Part shown: piece after piece, positions 8,033-56,245 of the stretch | Position numbering within the stretch: the first letter of the stretch is position 1 | Layout of the letters: the number at the start of each line of letters is the position of its first letter | Assembly (NCBI RefSeq): GCF_000017505.1 | Contig: NC_009675.1 | Coordinates: forward strand, 4,406,501-4,470,500 | Length of the DNA stretch: 64,000 nucleotides | Origin: Anaeromyxobacter sp. Fw109-5 | GTDB taxonomy: Bacteria; Myxococcota; Myxococcia; Myxococcales; Anaeromyxobacteraceae | Reading direction: 5' to 3' | Notes under the pieces: generated by a model | What the model was told of the DNA's origin: nothing | Seen by the model: the letters and a program-made list of their open reading frames with translations, nothing else | Database searches by the model: none | Translations under genes and position numbers: made by a program

Positions 8033-8391
8033 CGTTCAGGAACGCGCTCTTGGCCGCGCGGGGGGCGTGATCGCGGAGCTCGGGGTCTTGGTGAACGCGG
8101 ACCGCGAGCTCTCGGGCGCAGCGGTAGACGTCGAGGGACTGAAAGGGAAAGGGTGGCGCAGAGAGAGTGGGAGTGAGAGTGGAGGAAGAGTGAGCTGGAC
8201 CGGGCTTCAGCCGCCGTGACGGGCAAAGCCCGGCGCGGCGGTGATTGAACGGTTCACGACGTCGCGGTCGGGGTCGAAGTCGAGGCCCTTCGACTTCGCG
8301 CCGCGGCTGACGCCCCGTCGCTACTCTCAGGTTGCCGGCCTCAGGAGATCCCGCGGGTCTCGGTCGAGGTCGCGCTCGAGGTCGCGGTGTC
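8033..8391. other. Intergenic, degenerate repeat sequence
   Basis: No credible gene is seen. 8145-8195 is purine-rich (GAGAGTGGGAGTGAGAG type). 8263-8395 holds GGTCGS/GAGGTCGAG hexamers interrupted at about 8283-8360 by a decayed copy of the REP-like element, including the CAGGAGATCC block also present in the 81-bp unit at 38278-38528. Confidence 0.6.
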
Positions 8392-29820: not shown

Positions 29821-30150
29821 ATGGGCCTCCTCGACCGCATGTCCTTCAAGAAGCAGGAAGTGGAACCGCCCGAGGCGATCGACGTCGTCGACGACGGCGT
29901 GCGCATCCTCTGGCCGGGCGGACCCGAGGTGACCGTGCCACACCTCCGCCTGCGCGACTTCTGCCCGTGCGCCGGGTGCGTCGAGGAGGGGACGGGGAAG
30001 AAGATCCTGGACCCCGCCACCATCCCCGCCGACATCCGCCCGCTCGAGCTCGAGGCCATCGGCAGCTACGCGATCCGCATCCGCTGGTCGGACGGTCACG
30101 ACACCGGGCTCTACACCTGGGAGACGCTGCGCCGCGCGTCGGGGTTGTAG
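29821..30150 (+). CDS. DUF971 (gamma-butyrobetaine hydroxylase N-terminal-like) protein
   Basis: This 109-residue protein is a stand-alone DUF971/GBBH-like N-terminal domain. Residues about 20-105 contain VRILWPGGPEVTVPHLRLRDFCPCAGCVEE, with the Cys-x-Cys-x-x-Cys group that binds metal in this family, then DIRPLELEAIGSYAIRIRWSD and TGLYTWETLRR. Bacterial members are often near Mrp/ApbC FeS carriers; none is seen here. TGTAAA sits 7 nt before the ATG, preceded by TTGACG at 29783, so it may have its own promoter inside the end of the NRDE gene. The 175-bp repeat array starts just after the stop. Confidence 0.85.
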   Translation: MGLLDRMSFKKQEVEPPEAIDVVDDGVRILWPGGPEVTVPHLRLRDFCPCAGCVEEGTGKKILDPATIPADIRPLELEAIGSYAIRIRWSDGHDTGLYTWETLRRASGL

Positions 30151-30164
30151 CAGCGGGTGGCCCC

Positions 30165-30735
30165 CAGCGGCTCCGCCGCTGGGGCGGGGACGCAGTCGAG
30201 CCATCACTCTAGGTCATGTCGCGGGAGGGCCCCGCGCGAAGCGCGGGAGGGGCGGAGCCCCTCCGGCGGGGAACCTGCGCGCACCCGCGTCAGCGGGCGC
30301 GCAGGTTCACGGGCCCCGCCGAGCAGGGGGTGGGGCCCCAGCGGCTCCGCCGCTGGGGCGGGGGACGCAGTCGAGCCATCACTCTAGGTCATGTCGCGGG
30401 AGGGCCCCGCGCGAAGCGCGGGAGGGGCGGAGCCCCTCCGGCGGGGAACCTGCGCGCACCCGCGTCAGCGGGCGCGCAGGTTCACGGGCCCCGCCGAGCA
30501 GGGGGTGGGGCCCCAGCGGCTCCGCCGCTGGGGCGGGGGACGCAGTCGAGCCATCACTCTAGGTCATGTCGCGGGAGGGCCCCGCGCGAAGCGCGGGAGG
30601 GGCGGAGCCCCTCCGGCGGGGAACCTGCGCGCACCCGCGTCAGCGGCCGCGCAGGTTCACGGGCCCCGCCGAGCAGGGGGTGGGGCCCCAGCGGCTCCGC
30701 CGCTGGGGCGGGGGACGCAGTCCCCCGTGAGATCA
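30165..30735. repeat. 175-bp tandem repeat, three full copies plus partial fourth
   Basis: Units begin at 30165, 30339, 30514 and 30689 (CAGCGGCTCCGCCGCTGGGG), giving periods of 174, 175 and 175 bp. Copies are almost identical: copy 1 lacks one G, and one C/G change is seen near 30647. Each unit contains several hairpins (CAGCGGC/GCCGCTG, GGGGCGGAGCCCC, and CCTGCGCGC with GCGCGCAGG). Because 175 is not a multiple of 3, ORFs running through it change frame and are not credible. It fills the gap between a plus-strand and a minus-strand gene. Confidence 0.95.
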
Positions 30736-35367: not shown

Positions 35368-35706
35368 TTACGGCGAACGATACCGGGCCTGCGGCGGGCG
35401 TCCTCGCTCGTCGCGCCTGCGCCGTACGGAGGCAGTACGGCTCGGCACTCCTCGCTGCGGGTGCCCGCCTCGGCTCCGGTCTCGTTCGCCTGCGGATGAC
35501 GAGCGGGCCCGTTCATCCCGAGCGTACGTTCCTGCGCGTAGCGCGGGAACCGGAGTCGAGGGACGGTCTCGTACGCCTGCGGATGACGAGCGTCGGCTCC
35601 CGTCTCGTGTGCCTCACGAAACGGTGGTGCTCCGGGAGTCCGATCCGCTCGCCCTGAGCCTGTCGAAGGGCGAGCGGTGCGCGGCTCGACTCGAGCGGCC
35701 AGGCGA
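35368..35706. repeat. Repeat-rich intergenic region with REP-like elements
   Basis: No gene. Contents: a 26-nt direct repeat at 35480-35505 and 35567-35592 (one mismatch); a REP-like palindrome at 35513-35564 that starts TCATCCCGAG and ends GTCGAGGGAC, in the opposite orientation to those at 38278-38528 and 44119-44222; and at 35645-35678 a palindrome with the core GCCCTGAGCCTGTCGAAGGG, a motif seen dispersed in many unrelated bacterial genomes. Confidence 0.8.
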
Positions 35707-36773
<1,067 letters not shown>

Positions 36774-36777
<4 letters not shown>

Positions 36778-37860: not shown

Positions 37861-40068
37861 CTACCTGAGCTGCTTCGCGAGGATCTCGCGCACCGCGCGC
37901 GCCTGCTCGCCGTTGGGCGCGAGCTGGAGGAAGCGCTGGTAGGCGGCGCGCGCCTGCGGGATCTTCCCCTCCGCCTGCTTCACCTCCCCGAGGAGCAGCC
38001 AGGCGGGCGCGTACCGTCCGTCCACCGCGATGGCCTCCTCGAGCGCGCGGAGGGCTTCCGCCGAGCGGTTCGCGTCGTACAGGGCCCGGGCCAGGCCGAC
38101 GTTCGCCGGCCCGGTCGAGCGCAGCGCCACCGCGCGACGGTAATCCGCGACCGCATCGACGAACCGCCCGGCGTCGTACTTGCGCTCCGCGGCGGCCAGG
38201 ACGCGGCGGTAGTCGGCCTCGGTCGGCCCTCGACTCTGCTCCGCCGCGGTCGGCTCGGGGTGAGCGGCCGCTTGGTCCACGGTCGGGGTCCCTCGACTGC
38301 GCGTCTCCGATGTCGCGGAGACGCTGCGCTCGGGATGACCGGCCACAGGAGATCCGGTCGGGGTCGCGGTCTCTCTACTGCGCGTCTCCGCTGTCGCGGA
38401 GACGCTACGCTCGGGATGACCGGCCACAGGAGATCCGGTCGGCGTCGCGGTCTCTCTACTGCGCGTCTCCGCTGTCGCGGAGACGCGGCGCTCGGGATGA
38501 CCGGCCACAGGAGATCCGGCGGGGGTCGGGGTCTCGGTCCCCTCTCCTCCCCTCATCATCACGAACGCTCCGCCGGCGATCGCCACCACGCCGAGCGCCG
38601 CGAGCACGATCGGCGTGGCCGAGCGACGGGACGGCGGACGCGTGGGGGCATTCCGGACGGCGGCGCGCAGCGGATCGACCGGCGGGGCGGGAGCGGAGTA
38701 GGAAGCCGTCGCCGCAGCGCTCGGCTGCGGCGCGCCGCGCGGCGTCGAGGGCGTCGAGAGCGAAGGAGGCAAGGGCAGCGTCCCGGGAGGCGGGACGGGG
38801 ATCGAGTACCTCCCGTGCTGGAAGACGTGCGCCGGCGGCGGGGTCGGCGCCGGACGGTCCAGCGCAGTGGGGCGCTCCGCCTCCGGCGCGGGCGGCGCCG
38901 CGGCTGGCTCGTGAGCCGGCAGCTCCGGCTGCACGCGACGAGGGGTCGCCGCGACGGGGCCGGCGAACCAGTCCACCCCCTGGGCATCGGCGGCGGATGG
39001 CGCGGGCGACGCCGGCTCCGCGGCCGGCTCCGCCTCCGGCTCCGGCGGCTCCGCTGGCCGGAGCGCGTCGGGCGGCGGCGAAGACGTGGGCTCCGGCGGG
39101 GTCGCGGCCGGAGGCGGAGGCGCCTGCACCTCGCGGAGGATCCCCTCGAAGAAGAGCTTGGAGATCACGCCGGCCGCGGCGAGATCGTCGTAGTCCGCCT
39201 CCTCCACGACCTGCTCGAGCGTCCGCCGCCCGTCGAACAGCCGGAGCAGCGTGTTCACGTCGTCCGGGATCTCCGCGAGGCGGTCCGCGAGGAGCGCGTC
39301 GTCGATCTCGAACACCTTGTCGAGGGCCGGCAGCTGCTCGACGATGCGACCCCACTCGTCGATGCGCCGCATCCCCTCCATCAGCAGGCCCTGCGTGGAG
39401 ACGGGGATCCGCTCCTCACGATCGATCGGCTTGAACTCGATCGCGAACTCCCCATCCTGCCAGTTGAGGAGCCGGTAGAACGCGTTCTCGCCGGAGAGCT
39501 TCCCGCCGAGCTCGCAGTCGACGATCCGGCCGTCGCGGAAGTAGCAGATCGCGAGCGCGCCCCGCTTGCTGCGGACGTGCAGCGCGCCCGACTTCTTCCC
39601 CATCTCCAGCGTCTGGACGAGGTCCACGACGCCCATGTCCGAGAGGCTGCCCGCGAAGCTCGCCCTGAGATCCTTCTTCTCGAGGCGCTCCTTCTCGCGC
39701 TTCTCGAGGAGGATCTTCACGCGGGTGACGATCTCCTTGATGTAGATGGGCTTCGTCAGGTAGTCCTCGACGCCCAACTCGAGGCCCTTCACCTTGAACT
39801 CGACCGACTTCTGCCCGGTCAGGAAGATGAACGGGGTCCCGCGGTGCCGGTCGTCCTCCTTCAGCCGCCGGCAGAGCTCGAACCCGTCCATCTCCGGCAT
39901 CTTCGTGTCGGACAGGATGAGATCCGGCGGGGAGATGGCGCACTTCTCCAGCGCGTCGCGGCCGTTCACCGCGGTGGTCACGGAGAAGCCCGCCTTCTTG
40001 AGGGAGACCTCCATCACCCGCAGTGACTTCGGGTCTCCGTCGACGAGGAGCAGGTGCTGCTTCGCCAA
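37861..40068 (-). CDS. Response regulator with DUF4388, membrane helix, repeat linker and TPR domain
   Basis: A 735-residue protein. An N-terminal receiver (residues 1-120) has Asp54 in [13 protein letters not shown] and Lys in [12 protein letters not shown]4388 domain follows (about 135-330; [20 protein letters not shown], then [20 protein letters not shown]). Next come a Pro/Ala-rich linker, one transmembrane helix (about 482-503, [19 protein letters not shown]), a repeat block and a TPR domain (about 620-735). The repeat block at 516-598 contains three near-identical 27-residue units ([20 protein letters not shown] then RETATPT) made by a mobile-looking DNA element. DUF4388 with receivers is typical of myxobacterial signalling and motility proteins. 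The receiver is cytoplasmic and the TPR region would be across the membrane. Confidence 0.9.
38278..38528. repeat. 81-bp composite unit, three in-frame copies inside the response regulator gene
   Basis: GGCCACAGGAGATCC recurs at 38341, 38422 and 38503, an exact 81-bp period. Each unit is a GGTCGS hexamer block, a REP-like hairpin (CGTCTCCGCTGTCGCGGAGACG, arms CGTCTCCG and CGGAGACG), GCTCGGGATGACC and the GGCCACAGGAGATCC tail. 81 bp equals 27 codons, so the frame is kept. Confidence 0.95.
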
Positions 40069-44118: not shown

Positions 44119-44222
44119 CTCGGGGTCGGGGGTCGAGGTCGAGGTCCCTCGACTCCGCGGCTCCGCTGTGCGGAGGCGCTACGGCCGGCCGCGGTGAACC
44201 TCGACCACAGGTGCCGGGTCGG
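44119..44222. repeat. Composite hexamer plus REP-like element
   Basis: GGTCGS hexamers (44119-44148), then CCTCGACTCC, a hairpin GGCTCCGC-TGT-GCGGAGGC, GCTACG, and a decayed ACCACAGG tail followed by CCGGGTCGGGATCC. This is the same order of parts as the 81-bp unit in the gene at 37861-40068. Lies between convergent genes. Confidence 0.85.
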
Positions 44223-46960: not shown

Positions 46961-47153
46961 TCAAGGGTGTGACGGCCAAGTGGCCGCTCGCAGGCGATCG
47001 GGATGGTCGGGCCACCATCCCATGCGATGGCGGGTTCTCGCGGACCGCGGTCGGGCCTGGGGCGCCGGTCACACGTGACACATCTGACACACCGCAGCAT
47101 CCGGCTCCTCCTCTGAACACCCACCGGAGTCCCGTCCCGCCCAGGAGGCGACG

Positions 47154-49028: not shown

Positions 49029-50867
49029 TCAGAATTCCGTCTTGAAGTGGAACGCCCCCGCGTCCTGCCAGCTCTTCACGGCCCGGAGCGCGTCCTTGAG
49101 GCGGGTGCGCTCGAGCGGCGTGAGCTCGGCGAGCGCGACCTGGTTCGTCACCGGGTCGCCCGCGGCGATGCGGCGGAGCTGCAGCCGGAGGCGCAGGCCG
49201 ATGAGGTAGCGGTAGGCCTCCGCGACCCGCGTGGCGACCTCCTCGTCCACCTTGCCGGCGCGCTGGGCGCCGTCGATCCGCTCCAGCGTCCCGCGCGCGC
49301 GCAAGCCGGCCTCGAGGCCGTAGCAGCGCGCGAGGAAGACGATGGGCGAGATCCCGTGGGCCTTCAGGTCCACCACGGACGAGGTGCCCTTGAGCCGGAG
49401 CAGCAGGAGCGGCGGGGGGCGGAAGTCGAGCGCGGCCTTGGCGAGGAAGCGCAGGAAGACGGGGCGCCCCGCCGCCTCCGTGAGCGCCGCGTCGAGGGGG
49501 TCGAGCCCGAGCGTGCCGGCCACCCGGCGGAAGTCGAAGAAGATGGACGCCTCCAGCAGCGCCTGGGGCGCCGGGGCGTCGATCCAGCCGCGGAAGCGGC
49601 GCGTCCACTCGGAGAGCGGCCCGTGCCAGCGCTTCGCCATGTAGCCGCCGGGGCACTCCGGGAACCCGGCGGCGACGAGATCCTCGTTCACGCGCGCGGC
49701 GAGCGCCGCGTACCACTCGCGAGCGGCCTCCCCCTCGTCGGCGTACACGAGCGCGTTGTCCTGGTCGGTGAGCAGGGTCTGCTCCATCCGCCCCTCCGAC
49801 CCGAACGCGATCCAGGCCCACGGCGCGGGGGCGGCCCCCAGGTCCGCCTCGGCCCAGCGGAGGATGCGGTGCACGAGCGCGTCGTTGAGGCGCGCCACGA
49901 ACCCGGAGATGGTGGACGCCTCGAGGCCGCCGGCCAGGAGGACGGCGGTCATCTCCGCGACCTTGCGGGCGTAGCCGGGGAGGCTCTCGCGCGAGGGGAG
50001 CCGCTCGACGCTCCGGAGCACCGCGACCGGGCCGGACGCGCTGTGCTTCAGGAGGTCTCCCGCCGTCACCACGCCGACGATCTCGTCCCCGCGCACCACC
50101 GGGAGGTGGTGCACGCCGGCGTCGAGCAGCGTGCGCCAGGCCTCGTAGATGGGGGTGCCCACCGTGACGGTGCGCAGCGGACGCGAGACGATGCGCGTGA
50201 GCGACGTCTCGGGCCCGAGATCGTCGGCGAGCACGCGGTTGCGGAAGTCGCGATCCGTCACGATGCCGGCCGGCGCGCCGCGCACCAGCACCGACGAGAT
50301 CGACGCCTCGCGCATGATCCGCGCGGCGTCCCGCACGGTGGACGTCTCCTCCACCCAGACCGGCGGGCGCTTCACGAGCTGCTCCACCGCCCCCGAGACG
50401 TCCGCGCGGAAGGTCGCGACCGGCGACTGCTCCAGGCTCGCCCGCAGCCGCTCCGCGAGCCCGGCGGCGAAGTGGCCCGCGAAGCTGGCGTCGCCGAGCA
50501 GCGCGCGGAAGGCGGCGCCGGGCAGCCGGTACGCCACGAGGTCCTCCTCCACGACCACGTCCAGCGTCGCCTCGCCCGAGACGAGCGAGGTGTAGCCGAA
50601 CGTCTCGCCCTCCTCGAGGAGCTGGAGCGTCTGGCCGTCGCGCTCCAGCCGCACGGCGCCCTTGCGGATGACCCACAGGTGCTCGAGGGGCGCTCCGCCG
50701 ACGCGGACGAGCTGCTTCCCGGCCGGCTCGAACACGACCTCGACGTCCCGCACCGCCTCGTCGAAGAGCTCGCGGCGGAGCGTCGCGAAGGGCGCGGTCG
50801 CGCGGAGGTACGCCACCGGATCCACGGTCGTCGTCGGTTCGGCCACGGGGACCTCGCTCGGAATCAC
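49029..50867 (-). CDS. cNMP-binding / CBS / DUF294 nucleotidyltransferase-like protein (copy A)
   Basis: A 612-residue three-module protein. A cyclic-nucleotide-binding-like domain (about 20-135; GAVRLERDGQTLQLLEEGET, FGYTSLVSGEATLDVVV) is followed by a CBS pair (about 160-285; ISSVLVRGAPAGIVTDRDFR, HHLPVVRGDEIVGVVTAGDL). A DUF294 nucleotidyltransferase-like domain (about 300-450) has FGSEGRMEQTLLTDQDNALV, with the GSxxR and DxD residues. A DUF294 C-terminal domain follows (about 460-605). The architecture is that of GlnD-like signal-dependent nucleotidyltransferases, but the target is unknown. GTG 50867 is the longest start. Third gene of the operon. Confidence 0.9.
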   Translation of the reverse strand: MIPSEVPVAEPTTTVDPVAYLRATAPFATLRRELFDEAVRDVEVVFEPAGKQLVRVGGAPLEHLWVIRKGAVRLERDGQTLQLLEEGETFGYTSLVSGEATLDVVVEEDLVAYRLPGAAFRALLGDASFAGHFAAGLAERLRASLEQSPVATFRADVSGAVEQLVKRPPVWVEETSTVRDAARIMREASISSVLVRGAPAGIVTDRDFRNRVLADDLGPETSLTRIVSRPLRTVTVGTPIYEAWRTLLDAGVHHLPVVRGDEIVGVVTAGDLLKHSASGPVAVLRSVERLPSRESLPGYARKVAEMTAVLLAGGLEASTISGFVARLNDALVHRILRWAEADLGAAPAPWAWIAFGSEGRMEQTLLTDQDNALVYADEGEAAREWYAALAARVNEDLVAAGFPECPGGYMAKRWHGPLSEWTRRFRGWIDAPAPQALLEASIFFDFRRVAGTLGLDPLDAALTEAAGRPVFLRFLAKAALDFRPPPLLLLRLKGTSSVVDLKAHGISPIVFLARCYGLEAGLRARGTLERIDGAQRAGKVDEEVATRVAEAYRYLIGLRLRLQLRRIAAGDPVTNQVALAELTPLERTRLKDALRAVKSWQDAGAFHFKTEF

Positions 50868-50912
50868 TCCGGACCTGGCGACGGCGGCGCCCGGGCGGCG
50901 CGCCGCCTCCGC

Positions 50913-52709
50913 TCAGACCAGGTCCGTCTGGTAGTGGTACGTCGCCTTCTCCTGCCATCGTCGGATGGCGCGGAACGAGTCCTTCACCCGGGTGCGCTCC
51001 GCGCCGGAGAGCTCGTCCAGGCGCACGATGTCGAGGAGCGGCCGGTGCTCGGAGAACGCGCGGAGCTGCAGGCGCAGGCGCAGATCCAGCAGGAACCGGT
51101 AGGCCTCGGACACGGAGGCGTGGAGGGCCTCCGCCATGAGGCCGGCCGCGCGCGCCGCCTCGAGCCGCTCGAGGGTGCCGCGGGCGGTGCTCCCCACCTC
51201 GACCGCGTAGCACCGCGCGAGCATGACCACCGGCGCGATCCCGTGCTGCTTCAGGTCGACCTCGGCGCCGCCGCGCAGGCGCAGGACCATCCCGGGCGGC
51301 GGCGTGAAGCGCAGCGCCTCCCGCGCCAGCGACCGGGCGAGGTGACGGGTGCGGGCGCCGCGGGCGAGCGCGGTCTCGAGGGGCGCGACGTCGAGGGGAC
51401 CAGCCGCGCGGCGCAGGTCGTAGAGGATCGCGGCGGCGGCCGGGCGGTGCTCCACGCACGCGTCGATCTCCTCCTTCCACCAGGAGATCGTCCCGTTCCA
51501 CCGCCGCGCCATGCGGCCCCCGGGGCAGGCCGGGAACCCCGCCGCGACGAGGTCGGCGTTGAGGTGCTCGGCGAACGCGTGGAACCACGCGCGGTGCGGC
51601 GCGCCGGCGTCCTCGTAGACGAGGGCGTTGTCCTGGTCGGTGAGCAGCGTCTGCTCCATCCGGCCCTCCGAGCCGAGCGCGACCCACGCCCAGGCGCCGG
51701 GCGCTGGCCCGAGGTCCGCCTCGGCCCACCGGACCAGCCGGGCGAGCAGCGTGTCGTTCAGCCGCGCGACGAGCCCGCCGATCCGCGGCGCGTCGACGCC
51801 GCCCGCCACGAGCGCCGCGGCCATCTCGGCGACGCGAGCGGCGTAACCGCGGAGGCTGTCGCGCCCGGCGAGCCGCTCGACGGCGCGGAGGACGGCGACC
51901 GGCCCCTGGGCCGAGCAGCGCAGGAGGTCGCCCGAGGTGATCACCCCCGCGATCTCGCCGTCGGTCACCACCGGCAGGTGGTGGATGCGCGCGTCGAGGA
52001 GCGCCGTCCAGGCGGCGTGAAGCGGCGCCTCCGAGGGGACGAGCTGCAGGGGCCGCGTGAAGACCTCCGTCACGGGCGTCGCCGGCGGGAGGCCGTCCGC
52101 GAGCACGCGGTTGCGGAAGTCGCGGTCGGTGACGATCCCGGGCGGATCCGTGCGCACCAGCACCGAGGAGATGCGGTGCTCCCGCATCACCCGCGCCGCG
52201 TGCGCCACGGTGGCGTCGCGCTCGACCCAGACCGCCGGCCGCACCACGAGCCGCCCGACCTCGATCGAGAGATCCGGCTGGCCCGAGAACGCGGGCGCGT
52301 GCGCCAGGCTCGACTTGAGCCGGTCGGCGAGCCCGACGGCGAAGTGCCCGGCGAACGGGGCGTACCCGAGCAGCCTGCGGAAGTCGGCGCCCGGCAGCCG
52401 GTACGCGAGGAGATCCTCGTCGACGATCACGTCGAGCGTCGCGCGCCCGCTGATGAGCGAGGTGTAGCCGAAGCACTCGCCCTCCTCGAGGACCTGCAGC
52501 GTCTGGCCGTCGCGCTCGAGGCGCACCGCCCCTTTTCGTACGACGTACAGGTAGTCGAGGGGACGCCCTCCCGCCGACGTGAGGCGCGTACCCACCGGAT
52601 AGAAGCCGACCTCCAGGTTGCGCGTCGCCGCGGCGAACTCCGCCGCCGGCAGCGCCTGGAACGGGGGGATCGATCGCAGGTAGGCGATCGGGTCGATCGC
52701 GACGGCCAT
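50913..52709 (-). CDS. cNMP-binding / CBS / DUF294 nucleotidyltransferase-like protein (copy B)
   Basis: This 598-residue paralogue of the next gene has the same order of domains: cNMP-like (about 10-125, FGYTSLISGRATLDVIVDED), CBS pair (about 150-275, ISSVLVRTDPPGIVTDRDFR and HHLPVVTDGEIAGVITSGDL), DUF294 (about 300-440, LGSEGRMEQTLLTDQDNALV) and DUF294_C (about 450-595). Catalytic-type residues are retained, so both copies may be active. Divergence is spread over the whole length, indicating an old duplication. TAAGCT lies 9 nt before ATG 52709. Gaps to neighbours are 51 and 45 bp, so C, B, A and the exonuclease are one operon. Confidence 0.9.
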   Translation of the reverse strand: MAVAIDPIAYLRSIPPFQALPAAEFAAATRNLEVGFYPVGTRLTSAGGRPLDYLYVVRKGAVRLERDGQTLQVLEEGECFGYTSLISGRATLDVIVDEDLLAYRLPGADFRRLLGYAPFAGHFAVGLADRLKSSLAHAPAFSGQPDLSIEVGRLVVRPAVWVERDATVAHAARVMREHRISSVLVRTDPPGIVTDRDFRNRVLADGLPPATPVTEVFTRPLQLVPSEAPLHAAWTALLDARIHHLPVVTDGEIAGVITSGDLLRCSAQGPVAVLRAVERLAGRDSLRGYAARVAEMAAALVAGGVDAPRIGGLVARLNDTLLARLVRWAEADLGPAPGAWAWVALGSEGRMEQTLLTDQDNALVYEDAGAPHRAWFHAFAEHLNADLVAAGFPACPGGRMARRWNGTISWWKEEIDACVEHRPAAAAILYDLRRAAGPLDVAPLETALARGARTRHLARSLAREALRFTPPPGMVLRLRGGAEVDLKQHGIAPVVMLARCYAVEVGSTARGTLERLEAARAAGLMAEALHASVSEAYRFLLDLRLRLQLRAFSEHRPLLDIVRLDELSGAERTRVKDSFRAIRRWQEKATYHYQTDLV

Positions 52710-52760
52710 CCGCGGAGGAGCTTAGCACGCGCCCCCGCGGCGCCCTCCGCCCCGGAGCGG

Positions 52761-53762
52761 TCAGCCGAGGGTCTGGTAGTGGTACGCCGCGCGGGCCTGC
52801 CAGCGCTTCACCACGCGGAAAGCGCGCAGCAGCCCGGCGCGCTCCGGCGGGGCGAGCGCGTCGAGCCGCACCCGGTTGGCCGGCGGCTCCCCGGCCTCGA
52901 GCGCCCGGACCTGCGCCCGCAGCTGCAGCCCCAGCAGGAACCGGTACGCCTCCCCGATCTCGGCGTGCGCGTCGGCCGAGAGCACCCCCGCGCGCCGGGC
53001 CGCCTCCAGGCGCGCGAGGGTCGTGCCGGAGGTCGCGCCCGCCTCCAGGCCGTGGCAGCGCGCGAGGAAGACGAGCGGCGAGAGGCCGTGCCGCTTCAGA
53101 TCGACCTCGGCGCCGCGCCGGAGCGACAGGACGAGCGGCGAGGGCGGGCTGAGCTCGAGCGCCTCGATCGCCAGGAAGTGGAGCAGGCGCGACGCGCCGG
53201 CGCCGCGGGCCAGCTCGGCGTCGATCGCGGCGAGGGGGAGCCGCCCGGCGAGGCGGCGGCGGTCGAGCAGGATCTCCGCGTCGTGCGCGTCCGGCTTGTC
53301 CACGCAGGTGGCCGCGCGCCGGACGAACCGCGAGAGCGGCCCGTGGTCGTGCTTCGCCATGTGGCCGCCGGGGCACTCCGGGAACCCCGCCGTCACCAGC
53401 GCCTCGTTCACCCTCTCCGCGAGCGCCGCGTACCACGCCCGGGACGCGTCCCCCTCATCGGCGTACACGAGCGCGTTGTCCTGGTCCGTGAGGAGCGTCT
53501 GCTCCATCCGGCCCTGCGATCCCCAGGCGATCCACGCGAACGGCGCGGGCGGTGGGCCGAGCTCCGCCGTCCCCCAGGTCACGAGCCGGCGCAGGAGCGC
53601 GTCGTTCACTCGCGCGACGACGCGGGCCACCTCCGGCCCGTCGACGCCGCGGCGGAGCAGCGCCGAGACGATCCGCGCGACGCTCCGCGGATGGCCGGCC
53701 AGCCCGGCCCGGGAGCGGAGCCGCGCCGGGCGCAGGCAGGCCGCCGCGTCCGTGAACGCCAT
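52761..53762 (-). CDS. DUF294 protein lacking the cNMP and CBS modules (copy C)
   Basis: The 333-residue first gene of the operon keeps only the catalytic-type half: WGSQGRMEQTLLTDQDNALV at about residue 83 and the DUF294_C domain (VDLKRHGLSPLVFLARCHGL, then YRFLLGLQLRAQVRAL). The first ~30 residues (MAFTDAAACLRPARLRSRAG) do not match the regulatory modules of copies A and B. It could be a natural catalytic-only form or a duplicate with a deleted N-terminus. Position 1 in the operon and TATTCT 6 nt before the ATG argue that it is expressed as is. Confidence 0.85.
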   Translation of the reverse strand: MAFTDAAACLRPARLRSRAGLAGHPRSVARIVSALLRRGVDGPEVARVVARVNDALLRRLVTWGTAELGPPPAPFAWIAWGSQGRMEQTLLTDQDNALVYADEGDASRAWYAALAERVNEALVTAGFPECPGGHMAKHDHGPLSRFVRRAATCVDKPDAHDAEILLDRRRLAGRLPLAAIDAELARGAGASRLLHFLAIEALELSPPSPLVLSLRRGAEVDLKRHGLSPLVFLARCHGLEAGATSGTTLARLEAARRAGVLSADAHAEIGEAYRFLLGLQLRAQVRALEAGEPPANRVRLDALAPPERAGLLRAFRVVKRWQARAAYHYQTLG

Positions 53763-54449: not shown

Positions 54450-54590
54450 ACGGGTGCGGCGCCGGCCGGAAGCCGGCGCCGCAGGCATCCGGAGCAGTCG
54501 GGCCGCTGCTTCACGGTCGGATGGGTCCCGTCGGCGACTCGCCGCTCGTGAGACGGCAGTCGTCCTCCGTCTCCTCGAGGAGCGAGTCGC
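54450..54590 (+). ncRNA. Structured nhaA leader, candidate nhaA-I / Li+ riboswitch (copy 1)
   Basis: ACGGGTGCGGCGC, a variable hairpin (GCCGGC around GGAA), GCAGGCATCC, then GGAGCAG and CTGCTTC forming a 7-bp stem around TCGGGCCG, then ACGGTCGG (to about 54520). A second copy with the same conserved blocks but a different variable hairpin lies at 56165-56245: covariation-like evidence for RNA. It is followed by a long hairpin (54534-54542 with 54582-54590, inner stem 54550-54556 with 54567-54573) that could be the expression platform. Position before nhaA fits the nhaA-I motif, reported to sense Li+. The motif match is from memory. Confidence 0.75.
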
Positions 54591-56164: not shown

Positions 56165-56245
56165 AGACGGGTGCGGCGCGTACGGACGCGCAGCAGGTAC
56201 CGGAGCAGTCGGGCCGCTGCTTCACGATCGGGCTGGGTCGCGGCA
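56165..56245 (+). ncRNA. Second copy of the nhaA-type leader RNA
   Basis: ACGGGTGCGGCGC, a variable hairpin (GCGT-ACGG-ACGC), GCAGGTACC, GGAGCAG-TCGGGCCG-CTGCTTC and ACGATCGG. Conserved blocks equal those at 54450-54520 while the hairpin arms differ but still pair, which supports a real RNA structure. It precedes the small membrane protein at 56364. 56246-56363 contains GTCCC/GGGAC-type hairpins but no clear terminator. Confidence 0.75.

Follow-up and report, generated by a model that had tools for sequence, protein, structure and literature searches.

A GTAG-tagged palindromic repeat (REP) dispersed through the genome of Anaeromyxobacter sp. Fw109-5 has most likely been captured in a disordered linker of a response regulator (RR), where the one harmless reading frame was kept and the copy was then triplicated locally. 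The host gene lies in the window, a 64,000-nucleotide stretch of contig NC_009675.1, and relatives of its repeat are found in many other predicted genes, where nearly all of them share one orientation, sense to the gene, and one reading frame. Palindromic repeats inside genes have so far been viewed as curiosities, above all in Rickettsia. Here 27 genes contain 37 sense copies, a sister species adds others, and the constraints on strand, frame and length become measurable, and the intergenic copies of the same family serve as an internal control for the constraint within genes.

The RR protein consists, in order, of a receiver domain, a DUF4388 domain, a Pro/Ala-rich linker, a membrane helix, the repeat linker and a TPR domain, as assigned from the open reading frame, Pfam and a structure model. 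Pfam places the receiver at residues 7-118, DUF4388 at 139-239 and the TPR at about 660-726. TRF detected a tandem array with a period of 81 at 38281-38535 (3.1 copies, 93% matches, score 440), and the inverted repeat GCGTCTCCGC...GCGGAGACGC is present in every unit. The features of the gene, with units numbered in the reading direction and covariance model (CM) scores in bits, are as follows.

37861-40068, minus strand: RR host gene, 735 residues, TTG start (ORF, Pfam, structure model)
38443-38523, minus strand: unit 1, 27 residues (TRF; CM 91.6 bits; translation)
38464-38489, minus strand: GCCG tag and hairpin of unit 1 (columns 34-59 of the 32-copy alignment)
38362-38442, minus strand: unit 2, canonical GTAG kept, 27 residues (CM 97.6 bits; translation)
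38383-38408, minus strand: GTAG tag and hairpin of unit 2 (alignment columns 34-59)
38281-38361, minus strand: unit 3, 27 residues (CM 95.0 bits; translation)
38302-38327, minus strand: GCAG tag and hairpin of unit 3 (alignment columns 34-59)
about 38218-38279, minus strand: tentative degraded fourth unit, in frame, 16 residues (nhmmer, CM)

The first-pass annotation had described three exact 81-bp units that encode the same 15-residue peptide three times. The tandem arrangement and the reading frame through the RR hold, whereas the exactness does not: the units agree pairwise at 76/81, 76/81 and 73/81 bases (90-94%), and the peptide motif is exact in one unit and carries one substitution in each of the other two. 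The candidate fourth unit was detected by nhmmer with an E-value of 0.009 in a small database and by the CM with 21.7 bits, which corresponds to E 0.36 genome-wide. The three full units share the private changes CTGTGGCC and GCGCAGT and are closer to each other than to the best copy outside the gene (about 90%). Because of these private changes and the greater mutual resemblance, the triplication looks, at the level of sequence, like tandem duplication of one captured copy rather than three separate captures. Comparison with related strains, which had been proposed for the number of units, revealed none in the RR orthologues with a complete linker, against three in this genome. The relatives found for the host gene place it in the genus Anaeromyxobacter, and the genomes treated here as A. 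soli and A. terrae were assigned by RR sequences identical to those of loci named for these species. The corresponding linker of A. soli is rich in Pro, Thr and Ala, with no clear hexamer tract, and the A. terrae contig stops short of the unit site.

The units span residues 516-596, preceded by a predicted membrane helix at about 487-498 and followed by TPR helices from residue 617. In an AlphaFold2 model built with 12 orthologues, the pLDDT stays below 50 over residues 317-613, units included, and the repeat linker is therefore predicted to be disordered. In-gene REPs elsewhere in the genome likewise occupy interdomain or terminal linkers. Pfam matched domains in 19 other host proteins, and in each of them the insert falls between the best domain stretches listed or beyond them; the host genes can be regarded as real since domains flank the inserts. 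These positions bear out the earlier suggestion that the unit, placed after the membrane helix, sits where it would do the least harm to a fold. The hosts include a fused ABC ATPase/permease, a DnaE-like protein (between the PHP and polymerase domains), two CheA-like kinases (Hpt/ATPase domains), the helicases Lhr and HrpB, DnaX, a protein combining TGT with a methyltransferase, and others. A ClpA-like protein contains two REP units in this genome and one in A. terrae. In the TGT host (locus L149, 1046-3226, plus strand), the queuine tRNA-ribosyltransferase is fused to Methyltransf_30 through a REP and a Thr-Pro tract.

The repeat is far from confined to the RR gene, and the outcome named by the first-pass annotation as refuting its reading, a unit present in this gene alone, is thereby found to be false. 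A 75-nt piece of the unit gave 57 BLAST matches in the 5,277,990-bp genome, and matches of the unit to other loci reach E 3e-22, which excludes a chance origin. Alignment of the copies yields, on the coding strand, the family consensus GGATCTCCTGAGGCCGGTCATCCCGAGC-GTAG-9-bp hairpin-AGTCGAGGGAC, and a (CCGACC)n tract often comes after it; in the 32-copy alignment, the consensus resolves into GGATCTCCTGAGGCCGGTCATCCCGAGC-GTAG-stem-loop-stem-AGTCGAGGGACC(CCGACC). The hairpin comprises a 9-bp stem and a 4-nt loop, with the GTAG tag directly 5' of the stem. Across the alignment, 91.7% of stem cells are paired, seven of the nine pairs change on both sides, and none of 500 shuffles performed as well, while versions of the stem slid along the alignment fail the covariation test. 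The palindrome had been called REP-like from the letters of the window, and its tag and covarying stem substantiate that description. At the RR unit, Rfam gave no curated RNA family match at the gathering score. The literature searched on Anaeromyxobacter repeats, in which subscription journals are sparsely represented, contained nothing on this family.

A CM search recovered at least 138 matches at E ≤ 1 and at least 122 at E ≤ 0.01 in this genome, so that about 120 or more relatives are dispersed in the genome. Family members occur in all nine Anaeromyxobacter genomes searched, from at least two in A. soli to at least 122; the counts are lower bounds since 150 candidates were scored per genome. 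Among 119 classified matches, 72 are intergenic, 39 lie in predicted genes and eight at gene ends, a ratio of genic to intergenic copies that is biased towards the subfamily of the RR unit from which the model was seeded. This census, which the first-pass annotation had recommended, corroborates its claim of hairpin relatives between genes. Gene calls outside the window came from a home-made codon model trained on this genome and seeded on the order GC3 > GC1 > GC2, which reproduced the known genes of the window. At the anchor, GTAG is present in 25/39 copies within genes and in 44/72 copies between them, and the other forms include GTGG, GCAG and GTCG. With regard to inverted dimers, head-to-head or tail-to-tail, individual REPs with a neighbour on the opposite strand were noted, for example the CM matches 428022-/428108+ and 571106-/571193+. 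Three intergenic members fall within the window.

8278-8356, minus strand: intergenic REP member beside GGTCGS/CCGACS hexamers (CM 74.1 bits)
35489-35571, plus strand: intergenic REP member (CM 49.3 bits)
44137-44206, minus strand: intergenic REP member (CM 50.1 bits)

Elsewhere in the window, a 175-bp sequence with GGGGCCCCAGCGGCTCCGCCGCTGGGG palindromes stands three times in tandem, nearly unchanged (98%), at 30149-30722, and three nhaA-I riboswitch matches lie within 10 kb of one another (46965-47020, 54452-54511 and 56169-56222). On the minus strand at 49029-53762, three successive homologous genes contain repeats of ~300 nt with 77-78% identity at a spacing of ~1.85 kb.

Inside genes, the family obeys a strict rule. 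With the GTAG anchor as reference, 37 of 39 copies within genes, distributed across 27 genes, lie on the coding strand, and in 37/37 of these sense copies the G of GTAG is codon position 2; the copies are thus read in a single frame as a 27-residue GHPERS-type peptide. The same orientation and frame hold for each of the six copies detected within A. terrae genes. The two antisense calls (loci L136 and L144) lie in the C-terminal tails of predicted integrases and may represent wrong gene ends. Stop codons were rejected as the cause of this frame lock: about four of the six frames are stop-free across the REP, and in the genic copies frames S1 and A3 are 97-100% stop-free and A2 about 80%. With each of the 27 host genes counted once, equal use of the stop-free frames has a log10 P of -16.6. 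Gene-finder bias was also rejected, as the host gene was still called in 56/64 simulations with other stop-free frames. The span between GTAG and the conserved 3' end, taken modulo 3, is constant in 34/37 genic copies versus 20/61 intergenic ones (P = 4e-9), which indicates that frame selection holds the length of the hairpin modulo 3 constant within genes, whereas it can vary freely outside them. The stems of genic copies remain well paired, with an average of 8.2 of nine pairs versus 7.6 in intergenic copies when the 29-nt class is compared, and this suggests that the copies were captured recently or came from families whose stems are intact.

The second feature of the genic copies is their association with a microsatellite. 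CGACS hexamers adjoin 31/37 genic versus 25/61 intergenic copies (P = 5e-5), and the hexamer tracts inside genes are read in a Thr-Pro-type frame in 15/16 cases. Among copies with a clear tract, phase 1 occurs at the 3' junction of all 14 genic copies, compared with 5/8 between genes; the single junction phase is therefore a tendency and not a rule, three of the eight copies in the small intergenic sample being different. The phase of the 5' tract is fixed only in genes (13/13 genic versus 2/11 intergenic). Six in-gene copies with few adjacent hexamers keep the same frame, and the tract is thus not the whole cause of the frame rule. Neither the one-frame rule nor the microsatellite association was reported in the literature searched, again with few subscription journals in its scope.

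Two sets of orthologues bear on the order of events. The linker of the DnaE-like protein is ordinary in five genomes. A. soli and A. terrae are the two relatives that show a Thr-Pro/Ser tract in it, and in the genome studied here the tract carries a REP at either end. Similarly, the ABC ATPase and permease are encoded in different frames in six Anaeromyxobacter genomes, whereas a Thr-Pro tract joins them into one ORF in A. soli, in A. terrae and in the genome studied here. Two REPs have been added to the fusion in this genome, whereas A. soli and A. terrae have none there. The position of the fused gene is given below.

Locus L023, 1190-3187, minus strand: fused ABC ATPase-permease (relatives at L229-L236)

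Since orthologues of both genes have the tract in the absence of a REP, the tract precedes the REP in both of the two informative series, and the comparison of these two genes suggests that the Thr-Pro microsatellite is the older element, to which the REP was added. The idea that a REP caused the ABC gene fusion was rejected on the same ground, the A. soli and A. terrae genes being already fused by the tract with no REP. A tract of this type with no REP is also present in the window.

36191-36451, minus strand: (CCGACS)n tract in a Thr-Pro/Thr-Ser frame, without a REP, in rsmA/ksgA (TRF)

In this 16S rRNA dimethyltransferase gene (35707-36777, minus strand), a Thr-Pro/Thr-Ser/Thr-Ala insert of ~73 residues is located just before the NLPY motif; the insert is absent in the A. 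soli, A. oryzae and Myxococcus orthologues.

The preferred explanation of these results is capture of a REP in a linker followed by retention of one frame. A REP copy would arrive within a Thr-Pro/Ala-Pro-type linker or next to one, and in many hosts a (CCGACC)n tract would already have been there at its side. Its strand and frame would be set by the usual single phase of the 3' junction together with the Thr-Pro frame of the genic tract. Insertions that are out of frame, truncating, or read as basic or hydrophobic peptides would be lost, and the hydrophilic, disordered frame would survive. In the RR, the captured copy and a short Thr-Pro spacer would have been duplicated to three 27-codon units by slippage or unequal recombination, and the translated peptide would passively extend the disordered linker from the membrane helix to the TPR domain. 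Candidate routes of copying are a RAYT-type HUH transposase and tract-mediated recombination. We infer that the units are translated and that the REPs are mobile; the order of events in the RR, and the shares that fall to tract guidance and to selection, would be those outlined here. 

The genome contains a sole RAYT-like gene, which encodes a HUH protein of 317 residues (locus L100, genome position about 3811190) and matches PF01797 with 22 bits and NF047646 with 54.7 bits (cut-off 80). No REP was found beside it. To our knowledge, a linked RAYT gene is common in GTAG REPs and is not required of every family. A. soli encodes a 295-residue relative of the RAYT-like protein, yet has only at least two REP matches.

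In a stronger variant, the REP spreads frame-safely through coding sequence, into or with (CCGACC)n, whose period of 6 and Thr-Pro frame determine on which strand and in which frame the REP is read. We regard this variant as a tentative possibility. If it is true, interdomain linkers in many proteins, among them a DNA polymerase, helicases, CheA and fused ABC transporters, are the joint product of a selfish palindrome and a microsatellite. Alternatively, selection alone may account for the rule, if REPs insert anywhere and in any orientation, only the sense GHPERS frame is tolerable, and the hexamers are a separate matter or grew later. The frame kept by the hexamer-poor genic copies and the frame selection on hairpin length agree with this alternative, as do the different peptides specified by the other open frames, one of them rich in Cys and Arg. 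However, a hydrophilic, stop-free antisense frame exists and is never used, the phase of the intergenic 3' tract also leans to one value, and the tract comes before the REP in the DnaE-like and ABC series. Selection as the only factor thus appears rather unlikely.

The two functional readings are both improbable. The 27-residue unit might be a peptide module, such as a phospho-acceptor or a binding linker, that has spread for its role in proteins, as its single frame, its many signalling and DNA-transaction hosts and its triplication in the RR would allow. However, the same sequence with its covarying stem occupies 72 intergenic sites, the hosts are unrelated, their orthologues lack the unit or have another copy number, and the unit is predicted to be disordered in the RR. 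The hairpin might instead act in the mRNA, through translation pausing, stability or internal attenuation, and thereby require the sense strand. The prevalence of sense copies and their well-paired stems would fit such a role, which nevertheless demands a strand and not a codon phase, and palindromes fold in either orientation. Moreover, no transcription-strand bias was seen in intergenic copies, REPs between co-directional genes being divided 21:17 by strand. An ordinary in-gene minisatellite unrelated to dispersed repeats, although compatible with the mutual closeness of the RR units, is refuted by the dispersed homologues that share the same 60-70-bp core, by their BLAST E-values and by the CM census.

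Capture in a linker with retention of one frame, as preferred here, implies that a non-coding repeat can repeatedly turn into protein sequence under a strict one-frame rule. The orthologue series, in which the microsatellite appears to come first and the REP second, make it testable how a selfish repeat becomes a linker. For annotation, GHPERS-like motifs in unrelated proteins need not signal homology.

Three known systems invite comparison. PMC3733652 deals with REPs of the GTAG and CGTC types and also covers those within genes; many of the latter are located in genes for replication and repair, and DnaE2 is among the hosts. RPE-4 and RPE-6 are CGTC-tagged according to the same paper. As in the GTAG REPs described there, the Anaeromyxobacter family has its tag at the end of the hairpin and many dispersed copies, mostly intergenic with some in ORFs, and both have replication and repair hosts, DnaE-type proteins included. 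In contrast to that description, the Anaeromyxobacter family has a conserved core of 60-70 bp, long flanks and a frequent association with CCGACC, and its restriction to one strand and one frame in genes has no counterpart in the accessible part of that paper. It also differs from typical GTAG REPs in lacking a RAYT gene flanked by REPs. The family resembles the GTAG REPs and is probably one of them. Rickettsia palindromic elements (RPEs) insert in frame into unrelated genes and encode a conserved peptide (PMC10969869, PMC3767692). The parallel with them drawn by the first-pass annotation is apt for in-frame capture, since here too a palindrome lies in frame in unrelated genes (27 hosts) and encodes a conserved peptide. 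The elements work alike, but the Anaeromyxobacter repeat is not classed as an RPE: owing to its GTAG tag and myxobacterial context, it is placed with the GTAG REPs and not with the CGTC-type Rickettsia elements. By their descriptions, RPEs of about 100-150 bp in Rickettsiales are set apart from an 81-bp, GTAG-tagged, hexanucleotide-linked unit in a member of the Myxococcota. In-gene minisatellites and Thr-Pro linker microsatellites resemble the RR array in that their period is divisible by 3 and their copy number changes through slippage in disordered linkers, whereas the Anaeromyxobacter unit is itself a dispersed palindrome. Intragenic REPs are thus already known, and the one-frame, microsatellite-linked capture described here appears to be new.
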